From NCBI RefSeq assembly GCF_003439925.1, contig NZ_QQRR01000001.1, positions 1,550,001-1,614,000 on the forward strand: a stretch of 64,000 bases of DNA, given 5' to 3'. Positions 9,569 to 59,871 of this stretch are shown piece by piece (position 1 is the first letter of the stretch; the number at the start of each line of letters is the position of its first letter). The DNA is from Haloprofundus halophilus (GTDB lineage Archaea > Halobacteriota > Halobacteria > Halobacteriales > Haloferacaceae). The position numbers were made by a program, and so were the translations under genes. Below the pieces are notes generated by a model. The model had not been told where the DNA came from. It made no database searches and worked only from the letters and a program-made list of their open reading frames with translations.

Positions 9569-10387
9569 TCACTCCTCGACGAACCGGTGGGCGACGCCCG
9601 CGATGCCGTCGAGGCCGAGCGCCTGCGAGCGCCAGCCGTCGCCCGCGTCCAGCAGTAGCGTTCCCGACTCGGTGACGGCGTACGTCGCCGGGCCGTGGGT
9701 CACGCCGACGATCCGTTCGTCGACCGGCGCGTCGACGGCCTCCCACTCGTTCTCCTCCGTGCGCGAGAAGACGCGACCGTCGCCGACGGCGTGAGCGCGC
9801 CGACCGTCGCTGGCGACGACGCGGAACGACCCCGAGAGCGCGTCCATCCAGCCGTTTCCGAGCGCGTAGAGGCCGGACCCGGTCGCCGCCAGCGGGACGC
9901 CCGCCGCCGACACGTCGCGCGCGTCGTCGAGTCCGACGTGCGAGAGGCCTCCGTCGTCGGCGCGGTGGACGCCGTCGGCGGCCGCGACGAGCGCGCCGTC
10001 TATCGCTCGCGGGTTGTCGACCTCTCCCGCGGCGGTCCACGAGTCCGGGTCGGTCGCCGCGGCGACGGAGCAGCGCGCGACGCGGCCGGATCCGTCGGCG
10101 GCGAGCAGCGTATCGCCGTCGAATCCGACGGCGACGGCCGAACCGAACCCTACCTCCTCGAACCCCTCGCCGCGGCCGTCGTCGAGGAGTGTCGCCTCGT
10201 CGGTGGCGACGGCGATTCGCCCGCCCTCGCCGGCGACGTCGAGCGCCGTACATCGGCGTTCGACGCCGAACCCACCGATTCTGTCGTCGGAGACGTCGAC
10301 GGCGACGACGCCGAGCGCCGCGGCGACGAACAGCTCCGTCTTGCCGCTCTTGTCGGCGTAGACCCGCTTCTCGTCGATGGTTGACAT
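9569..10387 (-). CDS. HVO_0234-family beta-propeller protein
   Basis: A 272-residue protein starting MSTIDEKRVYADKSGKTELF, the recognisable N-terminus of a haloarchaeal family named after Haloferax volcanii HVO_0234. Repeating blade-like units of about 40-45 residues, rich in Gly, Asp and Ala with alternating beta strands (VAVATDEATLLDDGRGEGF; PLAATGSGLYALGNGWMDAL), suggest a beta-propeller. No signal peptide or membrane segment, so cytosolic. No enzymatic motif; propellers of this type usually bind proteins or ligands. Divergent from the zinc-ribbon gene at 10570. Confidence 0.85.
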   Translation of the reverse strand: MSTIDEKRVYADKSGKTELFVAAALGVVAVDVSDDRIGGFGVERRCTALDVAGEGGRIAVATDEATLLDDGRGEGFEEVGFGSAVAVGFDGDTLLAADGSGRVARCSVAAATDPDSWTAAGEVDNPRAIDGALVAAADGVHRADDGGLSHVGLDDARDVSAAGVPLAATGSGLYALGNGWMDALSGSFRVVASDGRRAHAVGDGRVFSRTEENEWEAVDAPVDERIVGVTHGPATYAVTESGTLLLDAGDGWRSQALGLDGIAGVAHRFVEE

Positions 10388-10569
10388 ACGTCCGTAGTCG
10401 ACGCCGGTGTGCGAAAACGTTCCGTCTTCGAACTCCCCACGCGGACAAAGTGTAAACCGTATGATTGAAGCGACGAGAGAACGTCAGCAGTCTGAGAGTA
10501 GATAGAGAGGAATCGAATCCGCGCGAGGCCGCATCGCGCCGACACCCCCCGACAACACACATACCAGCC

Positions 10570-10722
10570 GTGTCACAGAAAGTACTGCTCATCTGTCAAC
10601 ACTGCGACCGGGCGCTGCCCGGCGAGAAACGCGACGACGGGACGCTCCGACCGTACGGAGTGAGAGACTGTCCCGACTGCCAGCGAGCCGACTTCGAGGT
10701 CAGAGGGTTCGAGAACTCCTGA
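10570..10722 (+). CDS. 50-residue zinc-ribbon protein
   Basis: A tiny protein read from the GTG at 10570, the start that places the first residues (MSQKVLLICQHCDRALPGEK) just before the metal site; the frame is open further upstream but that part looks non-coding. Two CxxC pairs (CQHC and CPDC, about 25 residues apart) predict a zinc ribbon. Haloarchaea encode many such single-ribbon proteins of unknown role, often suspected to bind nucleic acid or partner proteins. It converges with the SWIM-domain gene twelve bases away. Confidence 0.75.
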   Translation: MSQKVLLICQHCDRALPGEKRDDGTLRPYGVRDCPDCQRADFEVRGFENS

Positions 10723-10734
10723 CCGGGAGGTCGC

Positions 10735-11091
10735 TCAGAGGAACTCGCGGACGTCGGAGTACCACATGTCGTGGTGGTCGACGAGTTCCAGCGCGTCGGC
10801 GATGTCGACGGCGAGCGCGTGCCAACACCGCTGGTCGGGGTCGTCCGGGTCGAGGTTGTACGAACTGTCCTTGCAGGTGCAGCTTCCCTCCTCGACGACG
10901 TACTCCTCGGCGTAGCCGACGACGACGGTGAAGTCCCGGTAGCGCTTGACGCGGCGCTCGGAGACGGCTTCGATGGCCTGTGTCGCGCGCGTCCCGTGCG
11001 CGGAGACGAGCGTCTCGACTACCGGCCCGGTGAGCTTTCCGGCCTCGGTAAGTGCGGCCTGCCAGTCGTCGTCGCCGTCGCCGTCGTTCAC
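10735..11091 (-). CDS. SWIM zinc-finger protein
   Basis: A 118-residue protein with a SWIM-type CxC...CxH motif: CTCKD near residue 80 followed about 16 residues later by CWH. SWIM domains bind DNA or protein partners and are common in haloarchaeal small proteins. The GTG at 11091 ([11 protein letters not shown]) was chosen because a TATA-like TTTTGTGG lies about 25 bases upstream on the minus strand; an ATG at 11118 in the same frame would lie inside that box. The middle segment ([20 protein letters not shown]) is the strand region preceding the zinc site. Function unknown. Confidence 0.82.
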
Positions 11092-13906: not shown

Positions 13907-14830
13907 ATGCGTGGACTGGGATTCACTGAGACGCTCTCGAACCTCCCGGAGCCGTTCGTCGCCGCGTTCGCGCTCGTCACCCAACTCGGCGACGTGTGGT
14001 TTCTCTTTGCGACGCTCGGGCTTCTGTACTTGCTCGCCGGCGAGCGTATCGCCCGCCACCCGCGTCGGACCGGGGCGCTCCTGGTCGCGCTCTCGGTCGG
14101 TGCGCTGGCGACGACGCTCGCGCTCAAGGCGGCGTTCGGGTTTTCGAGGCCCCCCGACGCCGGGACGGCGTCGATTCCGCCGTGGTTACCGCCGATGCTG
14201 GAGACGGTGTATCTCAACGCCGCGACCGGTGACGGGCTCGGCTTTCCGAGCGGCCACGCCATCGGGACGACCGTGGCCTACGGCGGCGCAGCGGCGGTGC
14301 TCGACGTGTGGAACCGACGGAAGCGGACGCTCGTCGCGGGGACGCTGGTCGGCCTCGTCTGCCTCGCGAGGCTCGTCCTCGGAGTCCACTATCTCGTGGA
14401 CGTCGTCGCCGGCGTCGCCGTCGGTCTCGCCTATCTCGCAGTGGCGCTCCGAGTCGCCGACGGCGACCCCGCCCGCGCGTTCGGCGTCGCCGCAGTCGCG
14501 GCCGCGGCGGGACTCGCCGTAGTGGTGTTCCGCGGAGTCCCTTCCGAACTCGGTCCGATGGCGACGGCGCTGGGTGCGGGCATCGCCGGCGGGGTCGTGT
14601 GGCAGCGCCTCGACGCCTCGCAGCTGTCGAACCCCGTCTCGGTGCCCGTCGCCGTCGTGGGTATCGCGCTGTCGGGTCTGCCGTGGGTGAGCGCGTATCT
14701 CGTCGAACCGGGGCCGGTCGTCTCGCTCGTCGCAGGGGCGACGGGGCTCTCGATTCTCGTCGCGCTGCCGGCGCTGTCGGGGCGTCTCGGCGGCGAAAAG
14801 AGCGGCGGGGAAACGTCTCGGGCGGCCTGA
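13907..14830 (+). CDS. PAP2-superfamily membrane phosphatase
   Basis: A 307-residue polytopic membrane protein with the three PAP2 catalytic motifs: KAAFGFSRP (KxxxxxxRP), GFPSGHAIG (PSGH) and ARLVLGVHYLVD (the SRxxxxxHxxxD position, with Ala-Arg). These enzymes dephosphorylate lipid phosphates or isoprenyl diphosphates at the membrane face. In archaea, recycling of dolichyl or polyprenyl diphosphate is a likely substrate, but the sequence cannot show that. The last about 100 residues form extra membrane helices with low conservation. Likely in an operon with the YihY-type gene; it converges with glnA, ending ten bases from its stop. Confidence 0.9.
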   Translation: MRGLGFTETLSNLPEPFVAAFALVTQLGDVWFLFATLGLLYLLAGERIARHPRRTGALLVALSVGALATTLALKAAFGFSRPPDAGTASIPPWLPPMLETVYLNAATGDGLGFPSGHAIGTTVAYGGAAAVLDVWNRRKRTLVAGTLVGLVCLARLVLGVHYLVDVVAGVAVGLAYLAVALRVADGDPARAFGVAAVAAAAGLAVVVFRGVPSELGPMATALGAGIAGGVVWQRLDASQLSNPVSVPVAVVGIALSGLPWVSAYLVEPGPVVSLVAGATGLSILVALPALSGRLGGEKSGGETSRAA

Positions 14831-14839
14831 GCCGGCCGT

Positions 14840-16210
14840 TCAGAACGTCTCGAGGTAGCGCTCGACTTCCCAGTCGGAGACGTCGACGCGGTACTCGTCG
14901 TACTCCTGCGTCTTCGCTTCGATGAACTTCTCGCAAATATGTTCGCCGAGCGCTTCCTGAACGTCTTCGTCCGCTTCGAGCGCGGCCACGGCTTCGCCGA
15001 GGTTGCCCGGAAGCGTCTCGATACCGTACTCCTCGCGCTTCTGCTCGTCGAACTCGTAGATGTTGTCTCTCACCGGGTCGGGCGCTTCGAGTTCCTGCTC
15101 GATGCCGTCGAGACCCGCGTGAATCATCACGGCGAGCGCAAGGTAGGGGTTGCACGACGGGTCGGGCGAGCGGAGTTCGATGCGGGAGGCGGCCGGGACG
15201 CGCGCGGCCGGTTTGCGGATGAGCGCCGAGCGGTTGCGGTCGGACCAGGCGACGTAGACGGGGGCCTCGTAGCCGGGGACGAGACGCTTGTAGCTGTTGA
15301 CCGTCGGGTTGCAGATGGCGGTGATGGCGGGCGCGTGTTCGAGGATACCCTGGAGGAACTGCTTCGCGGTCTCCGAGAGGTCGAACTCGTCGTCGTCGTC
15401 GTGGAAGGCGTTCTCGCCGTCTTCGAACAGCGAGATGTGGGTGTGCATCCCCGAGCCGTTGATCTTCGCGATGGGCTTGGGCATGAACGTCGCGTGCAGG
15501 TCGTGTTCGGCCGCGATGGCGCGAACGACCGTGCGGAACGTCCCGACGTTGTCGGCCGTGGTCAGCGCGTCGTCGTAGGTGAAGTTGATCTCGTGCTGGC
15601 CCTCGGCGACCTCGTGGTGGCTGGCTTCGATCTCGAAGCCCATCGATTCGAGGCCGTAGATGATGTCGCGGCGGACGTCTGAGGCGAGGTCTTTCGGCGC
15701 GAGGTCGAAGTAACCGCCGGCGTCGTTGGTCTTTCTCGTCGCGCGGCCCTCCTCGTCCTCCTCGAAGAGGAAGAACTCGGGTTCGGGCGCGGCGTTGATG
15801 TCGTATCCCATCTCCTCGGCGCGGGCGATCGCCTGCTTGAGGACGTAACGGGGGTCACCCTCGAACGGTTCGCCCGTCGAGGTGTCGATGACGTCGCAGA
15901 TGAGGCGGGCCGACGCGCCGCCCTCCGTCTTCCTCCACGGGAGAATCGCAAAGGTTTCGGGGTCCGGCTTGAGGCGCATGTCGGACTCCTGGATGCGGAC
16001 GAACCCTTCGATGCTCGAACCGTCGAAGTAGATGCCTTCGGTGAACGCCTTCTCGGCCTGCGTGGCCGGAACGGCGACGTTTTTGACCGTACCGAGAATA
16101 TCGGTGAACTGGAGGCGGAGGAAGTCGACGTTTTCCGACTCGATCTCGTCGATGACTGCCTGCGCTTCAGTGCTCAACCCCCCGTCTGGAGATGCGTTTT
16201 CGTCCGTCAT
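14840..16210 (-). CDS. glnA: Glutamine synthetase, type I
   Basis: A 456-residue GSI enzyme that condenses glutamate and ammonia using ATP, the main ammonium-assimilation step. Motifs seen: the N-terminal beta-grasp region ([20 protein letters not shown]), the active-site stretch [37 protein letters not shown] near residue 240 with the metal/glutamate ligands, and the conserved [10 protein letters not shown]. The adenylylation tyrosine loop of beta-type bacterial enzymes is not evident. The ATG at 16210 was preferred to one nine codons upstream because a TATA box lies 31-38 bases before it. An Lrp-family regulator is divergent 126 bases away. Confidence 0.97.
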
Positions 16211-16795: not shown

Positions 16796-16932
16796 GCGGA
16801 GTTCGACTCGTTCTCGGCGTTCATCCGGCCGCGAGCGACGGCTTTGCGGCATTCCGGCTCTACGACGCTTCGGCTCTGGCCGGCAGGACTTCCCAGAGAA
16901 AGCTTATCGTGCATTGACCAGTCTGGTACGCT

Positions 16933-17364
16933 ATGCGTCTGGATAGACTCTCGATAGCTCTCGCGGCCGTGAGCGGGTTGATGTCTCTCATCGCTCTCGT
17001 TTACGGTCTCTACACTCTCTCGACTATTCCTGCCGACCCGCCGGGCGACGGCTTCGCACACGGACTCGCAGAAGGGTTCGCAATTGGTGCGACGTTCGTC
17101 GGTGTTCTCACTGCACTCTCCGTCACAAATCTGCTTCGTGAACGACGTCAGACGATGGACCGCCGTCGGCGAGTTCTTCTGTGGGTCGGCTGTGTGTTCT
17201 GTACCGTCGGTACGGTCGCGTTCGTCGGGTCGCTTCTCGTCCCGGCGGTCGGCAGTTTCACTGTCGTTCTCTCTAGTGCTGGAGTCGTTTTTGTCGGATG
17301 GGCAGTCTCGATGCTCACCGAGTACACACTGTGGGCAGAGCGTCACGACCCGGACGTAGTGTAG
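16933..17364 (+). CDS. Four-TM membrane protein of unknown function, less GC-rich
   Basis: A 143-residue protein with four predicted membrane segments (about residues 8-28, 45-67, 83-103 and 108-130) separated by a short basic loop (RERRQTMDRRRR). No enzymatic motif. The base composition is visibly less GC-rich and codon use more mixed (for example TCT, ATT, GTT codons) than in the neighbours, which hints at later acquisition. A TATA-like GCTTATCG about 30 bases before the ATG supports expression. Function unknown. Confidence 0.65.
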   Translation: MRLDRLSIALAAVSGLMSLIALVYGLYTLSTIPADPPGDGFAHGLAEGFAIGATFVGVLTALSVTNLLRERRQTMDRRRRVLLWVGCVFCTVGTVAFVGSLLVPAVGSFTVVLSSAGVVFVGWAVSMLTEYTLWAERHDPDVV

Positions 17365-42247: not shown

Positions 42248-42354
42248 AGCGACCACTCGCCGCGGCGGCCCTATAGCCGTTTCGCCCGGGAGGGACGAGG
42301 AGACGCCGAGGTGAGGGGGAACGCTCTTGTGTACCGCCTCGGAATCGGGGGTAG

Positions 42355-53711: not shown

Positions 53712-54500
53712 ATGACCGACATCAGATGCGGATTCGTCACGCAGACGCACTCGGGCGACGTGACAGCGTCCGAGGCTGTCGAGCAGGCCGACTCGTTCGG
53801 CTTCGACTTTCTCGAACTGTACATGGACGGCGCGACGGAGCGAACTCGACTGGACCGCGAGTCGTTCGCCGCCGCCGTCTCCGACGCCGCTCTCGACCTG
53901 CTCGTCCACCTCCCGTTCGTCGACCTCGACCTCGGGACGCCGCGCGACGGAGTCCGGGACGCCGCGCTGGACGAACACCGCGCGTGTCTCGACGCCGCCG
54001 CGGAGATGGGCGCGGAGAAGGCCGTCCTCCACGCGAGCACGCGCGCGACGTACCCCGAGTGGGACGCCGAGACGACCCACCCGCGGATGCTCGACGCGGT
54101 ACGACAGTTGGACGAACACGGCCGAGACGTCGGCGTCGAGGTGTGTGTCGAGAACCTCCCCGGCGTCTCGTTCACCGTCCACGAGTTCGACCGCGTGTTC
54201 GAGGAGACCGACGCCTCGATGACGTTCGACACGGGGCACGCCCGCGTCGACGGGATGGACGCCGAGGCGTCGGCGGCGTTCTTAGACACGCACCGCGACC
54301 GCGTCTCGCACGTCCACGTCAACGACGCCCGCGGCCCGAGAGACGAGCACGTCCCGACCGGCTCCGGAACCACGGATTTCGAGACGATTCTCGCGCCGCT
54401 TCTCGACGACTGGACGGGAACCGTCTCCGCGGAAGTGTACACGTTCGACGCCGACTATCTCGAACTCAGCAAGCGAAAACTGGACGAGGTACTCGCCTGA
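53712..54500 (+). CDS. Sugar phosphate isomerase/epimerase (AP-endonuclease-2-like TIM barrel)
   Basis: A 262-residue TIM-barrel protein of the xylose-isomerase-like superfamily. Metal-site-type stretches are visible: FLELYMDG, LLVHLPFVDLDLG, AVLHASTRATYP, VEVCVENLPGVSF (conserved Glu), MTFDTGHARVDGM and HVHVNDARGPRDEH. It isomerises or epimerises a sugar or polyol phosphate; the exact substrate is not readable. The ATG at 53712 fits a TATA-like CCTATAT near 53672. It is followed by the TagB-like gene after only two bases, so the two are co-transcribed. Membership in the glycerol-phosphate cluster is inferred from this linkage. Confidence 0.88.
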   Translation: MTDIRCGFVTQTHSGDVTASEAVEQADSFGFDFLELYMDGATERTRLDRESFAAAVSDAALDLLVHLPFVDLDLGTPRDGVRDAALDEHRACLDAAAEMGAEKAVLHASTRATYPEWDAETTHPRMLDAVRQLDEHGRDVGVEVCVENLPGVSFTVHEFDRVFEETDASMTFDTGHARVDGMDAEASAAFLDTHRDRVSHVHVNDARGPRDEHVPTGSGTTDFETILAPLLDDWTGTVSAEVYTFDADYLELSKRKLDEVLA

Positions 54501-54502
54501 GG

Positions 54503-55840
54503 ATGCGAGACGAGGAGCTGCCGCCCGGCGAGGTCACGGGTGGACGCGACGAACCGGAGGCGAACGGCTCGAAGACGGACGAGCGGAACCGATCCGAGCG
54601 GCCGGACCAGTCGGACCACGTACGCGAGGGGAACGGCACGGAGGGGCGAACCCGCGGCCAACGGTGGCTCTACTACGTCTCGCTGTTCCTCGAGACCGTC
54701 GCCGTCGCCGTCGTCGGCGCGGTCACCCGACGGGTCGGCCGCGACGACTCGCTGTGGGTGTTCGGCGCGCGCGGCGGCGCCGACTTCTGCGAGAACAGCA
54801 AGTATCTCTACCTCTCGGTCGCCGCCGACAAACCCGACGTTCGGCCCGTCTGGGTGACGAAGAACCGAGCGATCGTCCGCGAACTCCAGCGACACGGCTA
54901 CGAGGCGTACCACGCCTTCTCCCCGCGCGGCGTTTGGCTCCAACTCCGCGCGGGAACCGTCTTTCTGACGCACAACCTCAAGGACGTGAACCGCTTCGTC
55001 GTCGGCGGGTCGACGCTCGTGATGCTCTGGCACGGCGTCCCGCTGAAACGCATCTCGTGGGACGCCGAACTGGCCGAGCGCCCCCGACCGGTGCGAGCGC
55101 TCTCGCGCTACCTCTACGACCAGTACGACCTCGTCTCGCTCACCGGGTCGGGCGCGCGCGAGTCGTTCCGGACGGGGTTCGGCCTCCCGGACGACCGACT
55201 CGTCGTGACGGGCTATCCGCGGACCGACGTGTTCTTCGAGTCGGTGCCGGGGGCGACGCTCTGCACCGACGAGACGGAGCTGCAGCGGGTGCAGCGTCTC
55301 GCGGAGGAACACCGGGTGTGGCTCTACATGCCGACGTTCCGCGAGAACCCCTCGGCGCGGGCGTCCGAGCACGTCGACTTCGCGGCGCTCGAACGGGTGT
55401 TGGCCGAACGCGACGCCTATCTCGTCGTCAAACTCCACCCGAAGGAACGGCTGGACGCCGACCTCTCGACGTTCGACCACCTGCTCGAACTCCCCGCGGG
55501 CGTCGACGTCTACCCGCTGTTACCGGCGACGGACGGCCTGATCACGGACTACTCGTCGGTGTTGTTCGACTATCTGCTCCTCGACAGACCGGTGATACGC
55601 TACGCGTACGACCTGGAGGCGTACCGGGCCGGGCGGGGGTTCTACTACGACTACGAGGAGCTGGCGGCCGGGCCGACCGTCCGGACGTTCGACGACCTGC
55701 TCGACGCGCTGGAACGGAGCCTCGACGGTGACGACGACTACGCGGCCGAGCGCCGCGCCGTCCGCGACCGGTTCTTCGACGACGCCAGCGGTGGCTACGC
55801 CGACGCCGTGTACCGGGTGGTGAGCGAGCGACGTGGCTGA
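54503..55840 (+). CDS. CDP-glycerol glycerophosphotransferase-like (TagB/TagF family) polymerase
   Basis: A 445-residue glycosyltransferase-B-fold enzyme of the family that moves glycerol phosphate (or ribitol phosphate) from CDP-polyol to a lipid-linked or growing polymer in bacterial teichoic acid synthesis. After an acidic 50-residue head and a short hydrophobic stretch (about 55-76) the key motifs appear: VMLWHGVPLKRISWD, the VVTGYPRTDVFF region, KLHPKERLD and LITDYSSVLFDYLLLDRPVI. There are no signal peptides, so it acts on the cytoplasmic membrane face. The donor is probably made by the nucleotidyltransferase domain encoded at 57058. Archaeal polymers of this kind are poorly described. 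Confidence 0.9.
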   Translation: MRDEELPPGEVTGGRDEPEANGSKTDERNRSERPDQSDHVREGNGTEGRTRGQRWLYYVSLFLETVAVAVVGAVTRRVGRDDSLWVFGARGGADFCENSKYLYLSVAADKPDVRPVWVTKNRAIVRELQRHGYEAYHAFSPRGVWLQLRAGTVFLTHNLKDVNRFVVGGSTLVMLWHGVPLKRISWDAELAERPRPVRALSRYLYDQYDLVSLTGSGARESFRTGFGLPDDRLVVTGYPRTDVFFESVPGATLCTDETELQRVQRLAEEHRVWLYMPTFRENPSARASEHVDFAALERVLAERDAYLVVKLHPKERLDADLSTFDHLLELPAGVDVYPLLPATDGLITDYSSVLFDYLLLDRPVIRYAYDLEAYRAGRGFYYDYEELAAGPTVRTFDDLLDALERSLDGDDDYAAERRAVRDRFFDDASGGYADAVYRVVSERRG

Positions 55841-56009
55841 CAGTCGACCGAAAAGTAAAGAACGGGGTACGAACGAACTCGGTTGTGAACCGCTACGACG
55901 GGCCGTGACGGGTGGCACACTCCGGAGAGATATAGTCAAGTATGAGAGGTATGTACACGAACAGAGATAGTTTGATGTACGTGACGGTACACAGTTCAAA
56001 CACGAACGC

Positions 56010-56951
56010 ATGGCACAGCTAGCAGGGCAGGAAACGACGACCGGGAGGGAGGCGGACGTATCGCTCATCGCCCACCGCGGGTTCGCCGGCGTCTACCCGG
56101 AGAACACGCGGGCGGCGTTCGGTCGCGCCGTCGGCGTCGGCGGAACGACGGTGTCGCCGCAGGCCGACGTCGTCGAACTCGACGTGATGCCGACGGCGAC
56201 GGGGGAAGTCGTCGTCTTCCACGACACCGACCTCGGGCGGCTGACGAACGCGCCGGCCGCGCTGGCTGACCAGAAAGTGTGGGAGACGCCGTACGAGACG
56301 CTTCGGAAACTCGACGTGCTCGGCACCGGCGAGTCGGTGCCGCTGCTCGCCGAGATACTCGAACTGATTCCCGAGTCCGTCGGCGTCAACGTCGAGTTCA
56401 AGAACCCCGGCGTCGACGACGTTCGGTACGGCTCGCTCGACGCCGACGAACTCGTGGAGCGGCGCGCGGTGTGGAAACCGTTCGTCGAACGCACGCTCTC
56501 GGAGTTGACCGCCCACTCCCACGACGTGCTGCTGTCGTCGTTCCACGAGGGGGCGCTCGCCGCCGTCCGGGAACTGGACGACTCGGTTCCTATCGCGGCG
56601 GTGTTCTGGGACGACATCGAAGCGGGCTTTCGGACCGCCAGACGACACGACTGCGAGGTGCTGCACGTCCCGTGGAACATGGTACACGGCACCGACCTGT
56701 TCAACGCCGACTACCACGCCGGCCCGTTCGACCCCATCGACCTCGTCGAACTCGCCCACGAGGAGGGGAGACGCGTCAACGCGTGGACCGTCGAGAGCTG
56801 GTATCAGGCCGACCAGCTCCGTCGGGCGGGCGTCGACGGCATCATCGCCGACTACCCGAACCTCCTCCAGTACGGGTCGTCCGGCGGCGTGACGGCCGAC
56901 TCGAACGCGGTGAACCCGTCGCTTCGGTCCCCGGACGCGCCGCCGCAGTGA
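56010..56951 (+). CDS. glpQ: Glycerophosphodiester phosphodiesterase (GlpQ-like)
   Basis: A 313-residue GDPD TIM-barrel. Catalytic motifs: SLIAHRGFAGVYPENTRAAF (HRG and PEN), VVELDVMPTATGEVVVFHD (ExD and H), and the metal-bound VGVNVEFKNPG. It splits glycerophosphodiesters into glycerol 3-phosphate and an alcohol. No signal peptide is visible, so it acts inside the cell; it could recycle phospholipid head groups or trim a poly-glycerol-phosphate chain. The ATG at 56010 follows a 169-base A/T-richer region that probably holds its promoter. Member of the glycerol-phosphate cluster. Confidence 0.94.
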   Translation: MAQLAGQETTTGREADVSLIAHRGFAGVYPENTRAAFGRAVGVGGTTVSPQADVVELDVMPTATGEVVVFHDTDLGRLTNAPAALADQKVWETPYETLRKLDVLGTGESVPLLAEILELIPESVGVNVEFKNPGVDDVRYGSLDADELVERRAVWKPFVERTLSELTAHSHDVLLSSFHEGALAAVRELDDSVPIAAVFWDDIEAGFRTARRHDCEVLHVPWNMVHGTDLFNADYHAGPFDPIDLVELAHEEGRRVNAWTVESWYQADQLRRAGVDGIIADYPNLLQYGSSGGVTADSNAVNPSLRSPDAPPQ

Positions 56952-57026
56952 GTGTTCGAAATCGACGTACGTCACGTCTCCACGACTTACTCCCCGCGGC
57001 TTAATTCCGTTACTCGTTAACCCTCA

Positions 57027-57034
57027 CTTATTGT
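57027..57034 (+). promoter_or_regulatory. TATA-like box for the nucleotidyltransferase-HAD gene
   Basis: ACTTATTG is centred about 27 bases before the ATG at 57058, consistent with a leaderless transcript. Confidence 0.5.
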
Positions 57035-57057
57035 CCCTCGCGTGGTACACACCGAGA

Positions 57058-58581
57058 ATGACATATCCGAACACTGCAGTCATTCTCGCCGCGGGCATCG
57101 GATCTCGACTTCGGCCAATAACGCTCCGCAAACCGAAGTGCAGCGTCAGCGTCGACGGCACGCCGATTCTGGAGTATCAGCTCCGCGCGTACGCCGAGGT
57201 GGGTCTCGACGAAACCGTCGTCGTCGCCGGCTATCTGAGCGAGAAGACGCGGGCGTTGGCCGAACGCGTCGCCGCCGACTACGAGGGGTTCTCCGTCACC
57301 GTCATCGAGAACGAGGTGTACGCCAACACGGACAACATGTACTCGCTGTCGCTCGTCGAACCGCTCCTCGACGGCGAGCCGTTCTTCCTGAGCAACGGCG
57401 ACGTGGCGTTCGAACGGGAGGTCGTCGAGCAGCTGGCCGACGCCGACGCCGACAGCGCCATCGCCTGCGACACGTCGCTGTTCTCCGAGGAGGCGATGAA
57501 GGTGACCGCCGACGAACGCGACTGCATTTCCAGCATCTCGAAGGAGTACACGGACTCGGAGGCACACGCCGTCTCCATCGACGTCTACCGGTTCTCGGGG
57601 GCGTTCTCGGCGGCGCTGTTCGACGAGATCGAACGGAGCGTCGAACAGCACGGCGAGTACGGCGGGTGGACCGAACTCGCCATCGACCGGCTGCTCAAAA
57701 GCGGCCGTTTCGACGTCGACCCGGTCGACATCGCCGGCGCGCGCTGGGTCGAGATAGACAACCTCGACGACCTCGCGGAGGCAGACCGGCGGTTCGCCTC
57801 GCTGAGCCCGCTCGGCGAGAAGCGGGCGGCGTTCTTCGACCTCGACGGCACCGTCTACCTCGGCGACGAACTCATCGCCGGCGCGGCCGAGGTGGTCGCC
57901 GAACTCCGGGAGGCGGGCGTCGACGTGTTCTTTCTCTCGAACAACTCCTCGCGGTGGAAACCCGGCTACGTCGAGAAACTCCGGAGTCTGGGCATCTCGG
58001 CGACGCAGGAGTCGGTCATCCTCTCGACCGACGGCGTCATCGCGTACCTCGAATCGGTCGGCACCGACGAGACGTACGTCGTCGGTACCGAGGCGATGCG
58101 CGACGCGCTCCGCGAACGCGGGTTCGCCGTCGAGTCCGACGACCCGACGCACGTCGTCGTCGGTTTCGACACCGAACTCACCTACGAGAAGGTCCGCCGC
58201 GCGACGCTCGCCATCCACGACGGGGCCGAGTTCCTGCTCGCGCATCCCGACGCGGTCTGTCCGACCGACGAGGGGCCGATTCCCGACTGCGGGTCCATCG
58301 GCGCGCTCGTGGAGACGGCCGTCGGTCGTCCACCGGCGCACGTCTTCGGGAAACCCAACGCGGAGATGCTCCTGCCCACGATGGAGGAGTACGGCTACGA
58401 ACCCGACGATGTGGTCGTCGTCGGCGACCGGTTGGAAACCGAACTCCGGATGGCCGAGCGAATCGGCTGTGAGTCCGTCTGCGTGCTCACCGGCGACGCC
58501 GACCGCGCCGACGTCGAGGCCAGCGACATCGTCCCGTCGCTGGTCGCGCCGTCGATAGCGACGCTCTCGGAGTTTCTCTGA
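57058..58581 (+). CDS. Fusion of sugar/polyol-phosphate nucleotidyltransferase and HAD-IIA phosphatase
   Basis: A 507-residue two-domain enzyme. Domain 1 (about 1-245) is a nucleotidyltransferase: AVILAAGIGSRLRPITLRKP (GxGxRLxPxTxxxPK signature), FFLSNGDVAFE and GGWTELAIDRLL, most like the cytidylyltransferases that activate choline, ribitol or glycerol phosphates. Domain 2 (about 262-507) is a NagD-type HAD phosphatase: FFDLDGTVYLGDELIAGA, VFFLSNNSSRWKPGYVEKL, HVFGKPNAEMLLPTMEEYG and VVVVGDRLETELRMAERIG. The ATG at 57058 is preceded by a TATA-like box and removes nine upstream codons. Substrates are not settled; making an NDP-polyol for the TagB-like transferase is the most economical role. 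Confidence 0.9.
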   Translation: MTYPNTAVILAAGIGSRLRPITLRKPKCSVSVDGTPILEYQLRAYAEVGLDETVVVAGYLSEKTRALAERVAADYEGFSVTVIENEVYANTDNMYSLSLVEPLLDGEPFFLSNGDVAFEREVVEQLADADADSAIACDTSLFSEEAMKVTADERDCISSISKEYTDSEAHAVSIDVYRFSGAFSAALFDEIERSVEQHGEYGGWTELAIDRLLKSGRFDVDPVDIAGARWVEIDNLDDLAEADRRFASLSPLGEKRAAFFDLDGTVYLGDELIAGAAEVVAELREAGVDVFFLSNNSSRWKPGYVEKLRSLGISATQESVILSTDGVIAYLESVGTDETYVVGTEAMRDALRERGFAVESDDPTHVVVGFDTELTYEKVRRATLAIHDGAEFLLAHPDAVCPTDEGPIPDCGSIGALVETAVGRPPAHVFGKPNAEMLLPTMEEYGYEPDDVVVVGDRLETELRMAERIGCESVCVLTGDADRADVEASDIVPSLVAPSIATLSEFL

Positions 58582-58666
58582 GGGCGGAGACGGCGAACCG
58601 CCGAACACGCGGTGAGAATCGGCGGGGGTAATTAGACGGTCGACGACCGAACGAAGAACGAGTACC

Positions 58667-59242
58667 ATGTTCAGTTGGACGAGGACTGAAACCGAGATAG
58701 CCGTCTCGTGGCTGCTGGTCGCCTGTCTGGTCGCGGCGGGCGCCGTCGGACTCCGGAGCGGTGCGTATCCGATGGCGGTGTTCGCGCTCCTCTCGGCGGG
58801 GCTGGCCGCCGCGCCAGCGGTTTTCACGCGGGAGCGCCGCGCGACGCTCCCGTGGCCCGTCGTCGGACTGGCCGCCGTTGCGGCGCTCGGGCAGCGGTTC
58901 ACCCAGTTCGACGGCGTGGCGACGTACGTCTGGGTCGTCGCGGTGACGCTCATCCTCGTCGTCGATCTGCAGGCGTTCACCGACGTCGAGATGTCGTCGC
59001 GCTTCTCGGCGGCGTTCGTGACGACGACGACGATGGCGGTCGGCGCGGTCTGGACGGTGCTGCGGTGGGTCTCCGACGCGTTCTTCGGTACGTCGTACCT
59101 CGGCGGCGTCGACCCGGTGATGTGGGAACTCGTCGGCGCGACGGTCGTGGGGGTGGTCGTCGGCGTCGCGTTCGAGTACGGTTTTCACGGTGTCATCGAC
59201 GCAGGCGTCGAGCGCCGTCTCGACCGGGGTGAGCGCCGATGA
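58667..59242 (+). CDS. Polytopic membrane protein, partner of the YjdF-like protein
   Basis: A 191-residue protein with about five membrane segments (WLLVACLVAAGAVGL; MAVFALLSAGLAAAPAVF; VVGLAAVAALGQRF; YVWVVAVTLILVVDLQAF; WELVGATVVGVVVGVAFEYG). No catalytic motif. The stop overlaps the ATG of the next gene by four bases (ATGA), showing translational coupling, so the two are expected to act together. Starts 86 bases after the nucleotidyltransferase-HAD gene. It may be a membrane component of the surface-polymer cluster, but nothing in the sequence proves that. Confidence 0.78.
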   Translation: MFSWTRTETEIAVSWLLVACLVAAGAVGLRSGAYPMAVFALLSAGLAAAPAVFTRERRATLPWPVVGLAAVAALGQRFTQFDGVATYVWVVAVTLILVVDLQAFTDVEMSSRFSAAFVTTTTMAVGAVWTVLRWVSDAFFGTSYLGGVDPVMWELVGATVVGVVVGVAFEYGFHGVIDAGVERRLDRGERR

Positions 59243-59871
59243 CGGTGTTGGAAGAGCGCTTCGGGATTCCCGCCGCGTACCAGCGTATCGCGGCGCGACT
59301 GATGCAGCTCGTCTTGGCCGGAATCGCCGGTTACGGGCTCGTCAGCGGCCAGTTCGGGCTCGTCGTCAACGGGACGCTCCCGCTCCTCATCACCTTCCTT
59401 CCGGCGGTGTTGCGCCGCGACTACGGGTTGCCGATGAACGCCGGGTTGACGCTGTGGGTGACGGCGGCGGTGTTCCTCCACACGCTCGGGATGGTCGGCC
59501 TCTACGACGCCTTCGGCTGGTACGACCAGCTGACTCACGTGCTCTCCGGCAGCGTCGTCGCCGGCTGCGGCTACGCGGTCACGCGGGCACTGGAACTGCA
59601 CTCCGACGACGTGGAGTTTCCCGAGGAGTTCGTCTACGTCTACATGTTCGTCTTCGTGCTCGCGTTCGGCGTCCTCTGGGAGATAATGGAGTTCTCGACG
59701 GAGGTGGGGGCGCGGGTGTTCGGCGGGCGGGCGTACCTGGCGATTCACGGCGTCCGCGACATCGCGCTCGATTTCGCCTCGAACGGCGTCGGGGCGGTCG
59801 TCGTCGCGTTGGTCGTCCGCGAGGTCAGAACGCGGTTCCCGGCGGCGCTGGCCCGCGAGATGGACGAGTGA
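59239..59871 (+). CDS. YjdF/DUF2238-like membrane protein
   Basis: A 210-residue membrane protein with about six helices. The stretches GLYDAFGWYDQLTHVLSGSV and AFGVLWEIMEFSTEV are typical of the DUF2238/YjdF group, which keeps acidic and histidine residues inside the membrane. Function of the group is not known. Start overlaps the previous stop by four bases; the gene converges with orc1, ending three bases from its stop codon. Confidence 0.85.
   Translation: MTVLEERFGIPAAYQRIAARLMQLVLAGIAGYGLVSGQFGLVVNGTLPLLITFLPAVLRRDYGLPMNAGLTLWVTAAVFLHTLGMVGLYDAFGWYDQLTHVLSGSVVAGCGYAVTRALELHSDDVEFPEEFVYVYMFVFVLAFGVLWEIMEFSTEVGARVFGGRAYLAIHGVRDIALDFASNGVGAVVVALVVREVRTRFPAALAREMDE

Follow-up and report, generated by a model that had tools for sequence, protein, structure and literature searches.

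LicC and PntC, enzymes that use cytidine triphosphate (CTP), activate small phospho-alcohols or phosphonates for surface tailoring (PMC6697681). Polyol-phosphate chemistry on the surfaces and lipids of archaea is almost undescribed. The archaeal diglycerol phosphate and glycerophosphoinositol pathways involve a cytidylyltransferase, a transfer dependent on a cytidine diphosphate (CDP)-alcohol and a phosphatase step. Here we describe a locus of the haloarchaeon Haloprofundus halophilus, located in a 64,000-nt stretch of contig NZ_QQRR01000001.1 (positions 1,550,001 to 1,614,000; hereafter, the window), in which similar steps appear to be combined in four genes, A to D. These are predicted to encode a TIM-barrel protein (A), a TagF-like polyol-phosphate transferase (B), a glycerophosphodiester phosphodiesterase (GDPD; C) and a fusion of a cytidylyltransferase with a HAD-IIA phosphatase (D). 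We tentatively read A-D as a dedicated module for CTP-driven transfer of an alcohol phosphate, probably glycerol phosphate, together with cytosolic turnover, and give this reading slightly less than an even chance. A literature search limited to open-access sources, with most subscription journals outside it, returned no description of the four-gene set, which offers a small, testable handle on this chemistry.

A four-gene cassette in haloarchaea

An initial annotation, made from the sequence alone, had described a cluster of six same-direction genes spanning ~6 kb. Six open reading frames (ORFs), all on the + strand, do together cover exactly 53712-59871 of the window, and the locus of Haloprofundus marisrubri is collinear with it; however, only A-D belong together, while the last two ORFs, E and F, follow the rpiA...orc flank. 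The cassette therefore consists of four genes, not six. All 10 further loci in the same family have A-B-C-D in identical order and direction, with 44-93% identity to the window. The window, other Haloprofundus species and Halegenticoccus have the rpiA and orc flanks in common. In four loci (L019-L022), including those of two Halohasta species, the flanks differ and A-D are still together. Since the cassette recurs in about ten haloarchaeal genera with differing flanks, the grouping of A-D is not due to chance. A scan of named genomes for the D fusion gave matches only in haloarchaea (Haloprofundus, Halegenticoccus, Halorussus, Haladaptatus, Natronomonas, Halomarina, Halohasta and an unclassified metagenome-assembled genome, MAG), where the gene order is A-B-C-D or B-C-D-A. 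Variants were also seen, i.e., B-C-D without A (a Natronomonas MAG and Halomarina), C-D-A with B elsewhere (two Halorussus), D-A with B-C elsewhere (Halorussus halobius), B-D with a convergent C, and A-B-D without C. Conservation of the gene set across haloarchaea, as the initial annotation envisaged it, thus holds for the four genes, which stay together, but not for E and F. Some gene neighbourhoods were read with a composition-based gene caller that miscalled some antisense frames, and for these only families confirmed by tblastn or Pfam were used.

Co-occurrence was scored class-wide in a sample of 391 haloarchaeal genomes from 86 genera. D was present in 26 genomes and 10 genera (E <= 1e-90), and B in 54 genomes and 24 genera (E <= 1e-25). 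A homologue of B was present in all 26 D genomes, and 28 genomes had B without D (Fisher exact p = 7e-26, a descriptive value, as the genomes are related and kinship was left uncorrected). Three Halorussus genomes, those of H. amylolyticus, H. marinus and H. halobius, do not have B next to D, yet each encodes a strong B (500-546 bits) at another position. Cassette-type A (>400 bits) occurred in 19 genomes, every one of them a D genome. GDPDs were widespread (184 genomes at E <= 1e-70), so that C by itself is no marker of the cassette. B and D are the constant pair, and C and A the variable genes. In one D genome, G185, the fusion (L089, 8177-11466) has a transposase-like gene and another nucleotidyltransferase nearby, and the only B is a distant one ~28 kb away.

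The TagF-like transferase

Gene B (54503..55840, + strand) is predicted to encode a protein of 445 amino acids that matches PF04464 (Glyphos_transf; 1.4e-68) with 231.9 bits against a cut-off of 22.1. When a profile of 11 B sequences was compared with the PDB, TagF of Staphylococcus epidermidis (3l7i) came first (4e-43), followed by TarL, Cps3D and Bcs3. The catalytic residues H177 (WHG) and H312 (KLHP) are invariant in the orthologues and in register with TagF, and the second of them aligns to the position altered in TagF entry 3l7m, where the second histidine is replaced by alanine. The TDYSS (D349-S352) and GYPR motifs are kept as well. By family and conserved catalytic histidines, B thus reads as a transferase of the TagB/TagF type, in agreement with the initial annotation. 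The best-ranked NCBIfam models are TarL, TarF and TarB, but all score far under their curated cut-offs (TarL, 98 of 1000), and B is therefore treated as a family member without pathway assignment. All 11 aligned orthologues have a hydrophobic stretch N-terminal to the catalytic domain, and B is probably membrane-anchored through it.

In genomes that have B without D, we found 16 loci where a sister B adjoins a stand-alone nucleotidyltransferase. From four of these regions (L066, L067, L071 and L076), ten proteins encoded near B were searched against Pfam, and eight matched, their families being GT2, GT4, GT61, O-antigen ligase, polysaccharide flippase and sulfatase. Many of the loci, but not all, have relatives of several of these glycan-type neighbours close to B; neighbour family 4 was called sulfatase-like by eye, and its tested member had no Pfam match. 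In the B tree, the cassette B's fall into a single clade (97/94) embedded among the sister B's that stand next to stand-alone nucleotidyltransferases, with two exceptions: the B of G185 falls outside the clade, and L065, which has no D, falls inside. Because relatives of B elsewhere sit in polysaccharide clusters, a surface-glycan ancestry of the cassette B is plausible. Haloarchaeal TagF-like enzymes are hereby separated into the compact cassette type and those with a stand-alone nucleotidyltransferase as neighbour, many of which lie in glycan clusters. A separate locus (L084, genome G161) carries three TagF-like stretches (9813-10949, 14424-15209 and 16801-17313) within 8 kb, near a nucleotidyltransferase-like gene.

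The cytidylyltransferase-phosphatase fusion

The nucleotidyltransferase-HAD fusion reported by the initial annotation was recovered in gene D (57058..58581, + strand), which combines an NTP_transf_3 domain (~residues 1-250; 2.3e-15) with a HAD-IIA domain (~residues 252-507; Hydrolase_6, 4.4e-25). The best solved relative of the nucleotidyltransferase half is LicC (1jyk; 2.3e-15), and Thermotoga 4jd0 and PntC (6pd1) are among the next three. LicC is likewise the best solved relative of the one stand-alone partner nucleotidyltransferase that was checked, with PntC and IPCT-type enzymes close behind for both. The NCBIfam models AglF and Arch_glmU also match this half of D, below cut-off. Its sequence thus places it with the LicC/PntC type, nearest to enzymes that act on small alcohol phosphates with CTP. 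Since no match to a TagD-type glycerol-3-phosphate cytidylyltransferase was above cut-off in the genome (best 33.9 versus 165.4 bits), D is the obvious donor source. The HAD half scores 122.3 bits against the HAD-IIA model TIGR01460 (cut-off 100.15), and the motifs DLDGT, SNNS, FGKP and GDR are kept; a model of this half matches p-nitrophenyl phosphatases and the glycerol phosphate phosphatase Rv1692, among others. In a tree of the nucleotidyltransferases (one row of which is a duplicate, o_L089b being II_L089), the fused forms make up one clade (96/98) and the stand-alone partners, minus the long-branched L066 and L067, another (94/97); given the long branches between them, sisterhood of the two clades is not established.

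The phosphodiesterase and the TIM-barrel protein

Gene C (56010..56951, + strand; 313 amino acids) matches the GDPD family (PF03009; 2.9e-31), and its HR, ExD, HD and ExK motifs are invariant, which bears out the GlpQ-like phosphodiesterase of the initial annotation. Since none of the 26 cassette copies carries a twin-arginine translocation (TAT) signal, unlike 19 of 20 other haloarchaeal GDPDs examined, the cassette C is probably cytosolic. Stand-alone HAD-IIA proteins, which share 33-39% identity with the HAD half of D, are encoded close to a non-cassette GDPD in three loci. The two genes are adjacent in L087 (3094-4715). In L121 (4883-9396) and L139 (4626-10977), a TAT-exported GDPD and a stand-alone HAD-IIA have PhnC/D/E-type transporter genes nearby; judged by these genes, both look like glycerophosphodiester scavenging loci, which suggests that cleavage takes place outside the cell and that glycerol phosphate is then taken up and dephosphorylated. 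The occurrence of HAD-IIA beside GDPD and PhnC/D/E genes ties the HAD type of D to glycerol phosphate.

Gene A (53712..54500, + strand; 262 amino acids) encodes a predicted AP_endonuc_2 TIM-barrel protein (Pfam, 3.5e-32), for which the AlphaFold 2 model has a predicted local distance difference test score of 90.5. Nine metal-ligand positions of endonuclease IV are kept across 11 orthologues (H66, H107, E147, D173, H176, H202, D211, H213 and E241); eight of them align with the ligands of Mycobacterium tuberculosis endonuclease IV, and E241 falls outside the alignment. Archaeal MJ1311 has the same ligand pattern, and the isomerase UlaE is without several of these ligands. The best NCBIfam model is CbiR, at 84.1 bits (cut-off 105), and the endonuclease IV family model gives 39.1 bits (cut-off 244). 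CbiR is a metal-dependent phosphodiesterase (PMC7733943). With the endonuclease IV ligands kept and CbiR as best model, A is probably not the sugar isomerase that the initial annotation had named; a metal-dependent phosphodiesterase or other hydrolase is probable, and we lean modestly toward hydrolase over isomerase. Fold comparison was considered as an arbiter and does not separate the two: with Foldseek and VIA-align, ketose epimerases rank as high as MJ1311, and endonuclease IV is at rank 50 (Z 22.5). Some relatives of A with the same metal-ligand residues adjoin a PfkB-type sugar-kinase-like gene, a family assigned by eye from sequence (L107, L110, L111, L113, L117 and L118); some of these lie near a permease-like gene.

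Proposed function and alternatives

We propose that the nucleotidyltransferase half of D would convert CTP and the phosphate of a small alcohol, glycerol being the likeliest, to a CDP-alcohol. B, held at the inner face of the membrane by its hydrophobic N-terminus, could then use the CDP-alcohol to place the alcohol phosphate on a hydroxyl group of an acceptor in the membrane, for which a lipid, a glycolipid or a lipid-linked glycan are candidates. In the cytosol, C would release glycerol phosphate from glycerol-type phosphodiesters, and the product might be dephosphorylated by the HAD half of D or reused by the nucleotidyltransferase half; A, as a second, metal-dependent hydrolase, may cut the same kind of bond as C. 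The cassette B would have descended from B's working beside a separate nucleotidyltransferase, many of them in polysaccharide clusters. Sequence evidence supports the families, the catalytic residues, the linkage of B with D, the missing TAT signal on C and the origin of B. From family and context we infer glycerol as the alcohol, and we likewise infer the membrane acceptor, the direction of C and of the HAD half, and the chemistry of A.

Several observations weigh against this proposal. We looked for a starter, polymer-length or export gene in the cassette set and found none. Some cassettes are without A, and C is missing or elsewhere in some; G185 is a D genome whose B is only a distant homologue. 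Long branches deeply split the cassette nucleotidyltransferases from the stand-alone partners, and given this split, the donor used by the cassette may be a different one. If the two halves of D act on one and the same alcohol phosphate, it is strange for a phosphatase to be joined to a cytidylyltransferase. The LicC/PntC family also takes phosphocholine and phosphonates. Finally, the PfkB-type kinase-like gene, found next to relatives of A in 6 of 14 loci, suits an isomerase.

The breadth of the LicC/PntC family leads to one alternative, in which phosphocholine, phosphoethanolamine, a phosphonate or a sugar-alcohol phosphate is placed onto a lipid or glycan and the GDPD and HAD activities process the head group. 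LicC (phosphocholine) and PntC (2-aminoethylphosphonate) are indeed among the nearest solved relatives of the nucleotidyltransferase half; however, B lies in a family of CDP-glycerol/ribitol transferases, and C, together with the context of the HAD half, points to glycerol phosphate. We consider a different alcohol unlikely, though the least so of the alternatives. The teichoic-type polymer favoured by the initial annotation would require B to extend a lipid-linked primer with successive glycerol phosphate units to give a surface polymer. The alignment of B to the TagF polymerase across its catalytic domain, the ranking of TarL and TarF as its best NCBIfam models and the location of sister B's within surface-glycan clusters are in keeping with such a role, but those models are matched far under their curated cut-offs, B is without the extra domains of TagF, and the cassette has a single transferase with no primase, TagA/TagO-like starter or exporter; the genome also gave no above-cut-off match to a TagD-type enzyme. 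Beside the cassettes, the neighbourhoods read held no starter, primase or ATP-binding cassette (ABC) exporter, the rest of the genome not having been searched for these. In addition, a cytosolic GDPD and HAD are, to our knowledge, not part of known teichoic sets, which we count against a polymer. The teichoic claim of the initial annotation was therefore not upheld, and we regard it as doubtful.

Equally doubtful is a soluble phosphodiester solute, for which D would activate one alcohol phosphate with CTP, B would join it to a second, the HAD half would strip the extra phosphate, and C and A would degrade the product. This would explain a phosphatase and a phosphodiesterase in one set and fits the cytosolic C, and solutes of the diglycerol phosphate and glycerophosphoinositol type are known in Archaeoglobus; however, Halobacterium balances salt mainly by potassium (PMC1224877). 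Moreover, a TagF-like B with a conserved hydrophobic N-terminal segment and sisters in polysaccharide clusters points to a membrane acceptor. Salvage of imported glycerophosphodiesters by C, A and the HAD half, with B and the nucleotidyltransferase as a side branch, recalls the clustering of GDPD, HAD-IIA and PhnC/D/E-type transporter genes elsewhere. As the main function we think it very unlikely, considering that B and D are constant while C and A vary, that the cassette C is not exported, and that no transporter is linked to the cassette. We retain, at a little below even confidence, the transfer-and-turnover module, i.e., an undescribed, self-contained system of several haloarchaeal lineages in which CDP-activated glycerol phosphate, or the phosphate of a similar alcohol, would decorate a membrane lipid or lipid-linked glycan and be dismantled in the cytosol, using a new fusion enzyme and a transferase from a family whose members elsewhere act in surface-polysaccharide clusters.

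Flanking genes and intergenic elements

The six ORFs are preceded by rpiA/larB and followed by orc1/cdc6 and a MutS-like gene, all on the - strand. A and B are nearly contiguous (TGAGGATG), the stop of A and the start of B being 2 bases apart. The gaps between B and C (170 bp) and between C and D (~106 bp) both hold blocks kept within the genus Haloprofundus; since both C and D are preceded by conserved sequence, a single transcript of the set is not implied. A candidate shared regulatory element, GGTACACA, stands upstream of the start codons of C (55986..55993, + strand) and D (57044..57051, + strand). The window has three copies versus 0.31 expected, the third at 42328-42335 on the - strand, and the sequence GGTACAC upstream of C and D is kept in most of five Haloprofundus genomes. 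Searches across the region for structured RNA and tRNA found none.

E (58667..59242, + strand) encodes a predicted membrane protein without a Pfam family, and F (59239..59871, + strand) one related to DUF2238, with a match below the Pfam cut-off. The initial annotation had listed them as two coupled membrane proteins of the cluster; they do overlap by 4 bp, but they belong to the neighbourhood rather than the cassette. A six-gene cluster was rejected, since E and F are present only where the rpiA/orc flank is present. The cassettes of Halohasta and Haladaptatus and almost all of those in Halorussus lack E and F as neighbours, the exception being one distant F-like match 7 kb from D in Halorussus marinus; where present, the two genes are often separated from D by other genes, which differ between species. 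In Haloprofundus and Halegenticoccus soli, the pair (58667-59871) accompanies the rpiA...orc1 region and is independent of the cassette. A short-chain dehydrogenase was considered as a fifth member and rejected: it stands beside several cassettes, but the copies come from unrelated subfamilies (27% identity). It lies directly 3' of D in three Haloprofundus genomes (L013, 13724-14497; L014, 14025-14732; L015, 13737-14462), and none is there in the window.

Comparison with known systems

B shares with TagF/TarF/TarL (PF04464; S. epidermidis TagF, 3l7i) the whole catalytic domain, both catalytic histidines and TDYSS, but differs in being a single short protein with a hydrophobic N-terminal segment, without TagD, TagA or TagB partners and under the TarF, TarL and TarB cut-offs. 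The nucleotidyltransferase domain of D resembles LicC and PntC, and its NTDNMYSL region is similar to YNNFYSL of LicC; PntC 6pd1 is also a fusion, although to an aminotransferase, whereas D is fused to a HAD-IIA phosphatase. That phosphatase has the DxD, SNN, GKP and GDR motifs of NagD, Rv1692 and archaeal Pho2 and a HAD-IIA score above cut-off, but it forms the C-terminal half of a cytidylyltransferase. C has the family and catalytic motifs of GlpQ/UgpQ and differs by its missing export signal. A has the endonuclease IV-type zinc-ligand positions found in the PF01261 group of CbiR, endonuclease IV and MJ1311, with CbiR as the best NCBIfam match, but is below the CbiR and endonuclease IV cut-offs, and its fold comparison is not separable from ketose epimerases. 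Lastly, the archaeal diglycerol phosphate and glycerophosphoinositol pathways use other enzyme families and yield a soluble product, whereas the acceptor of the cassette is likely to be in the membrane.

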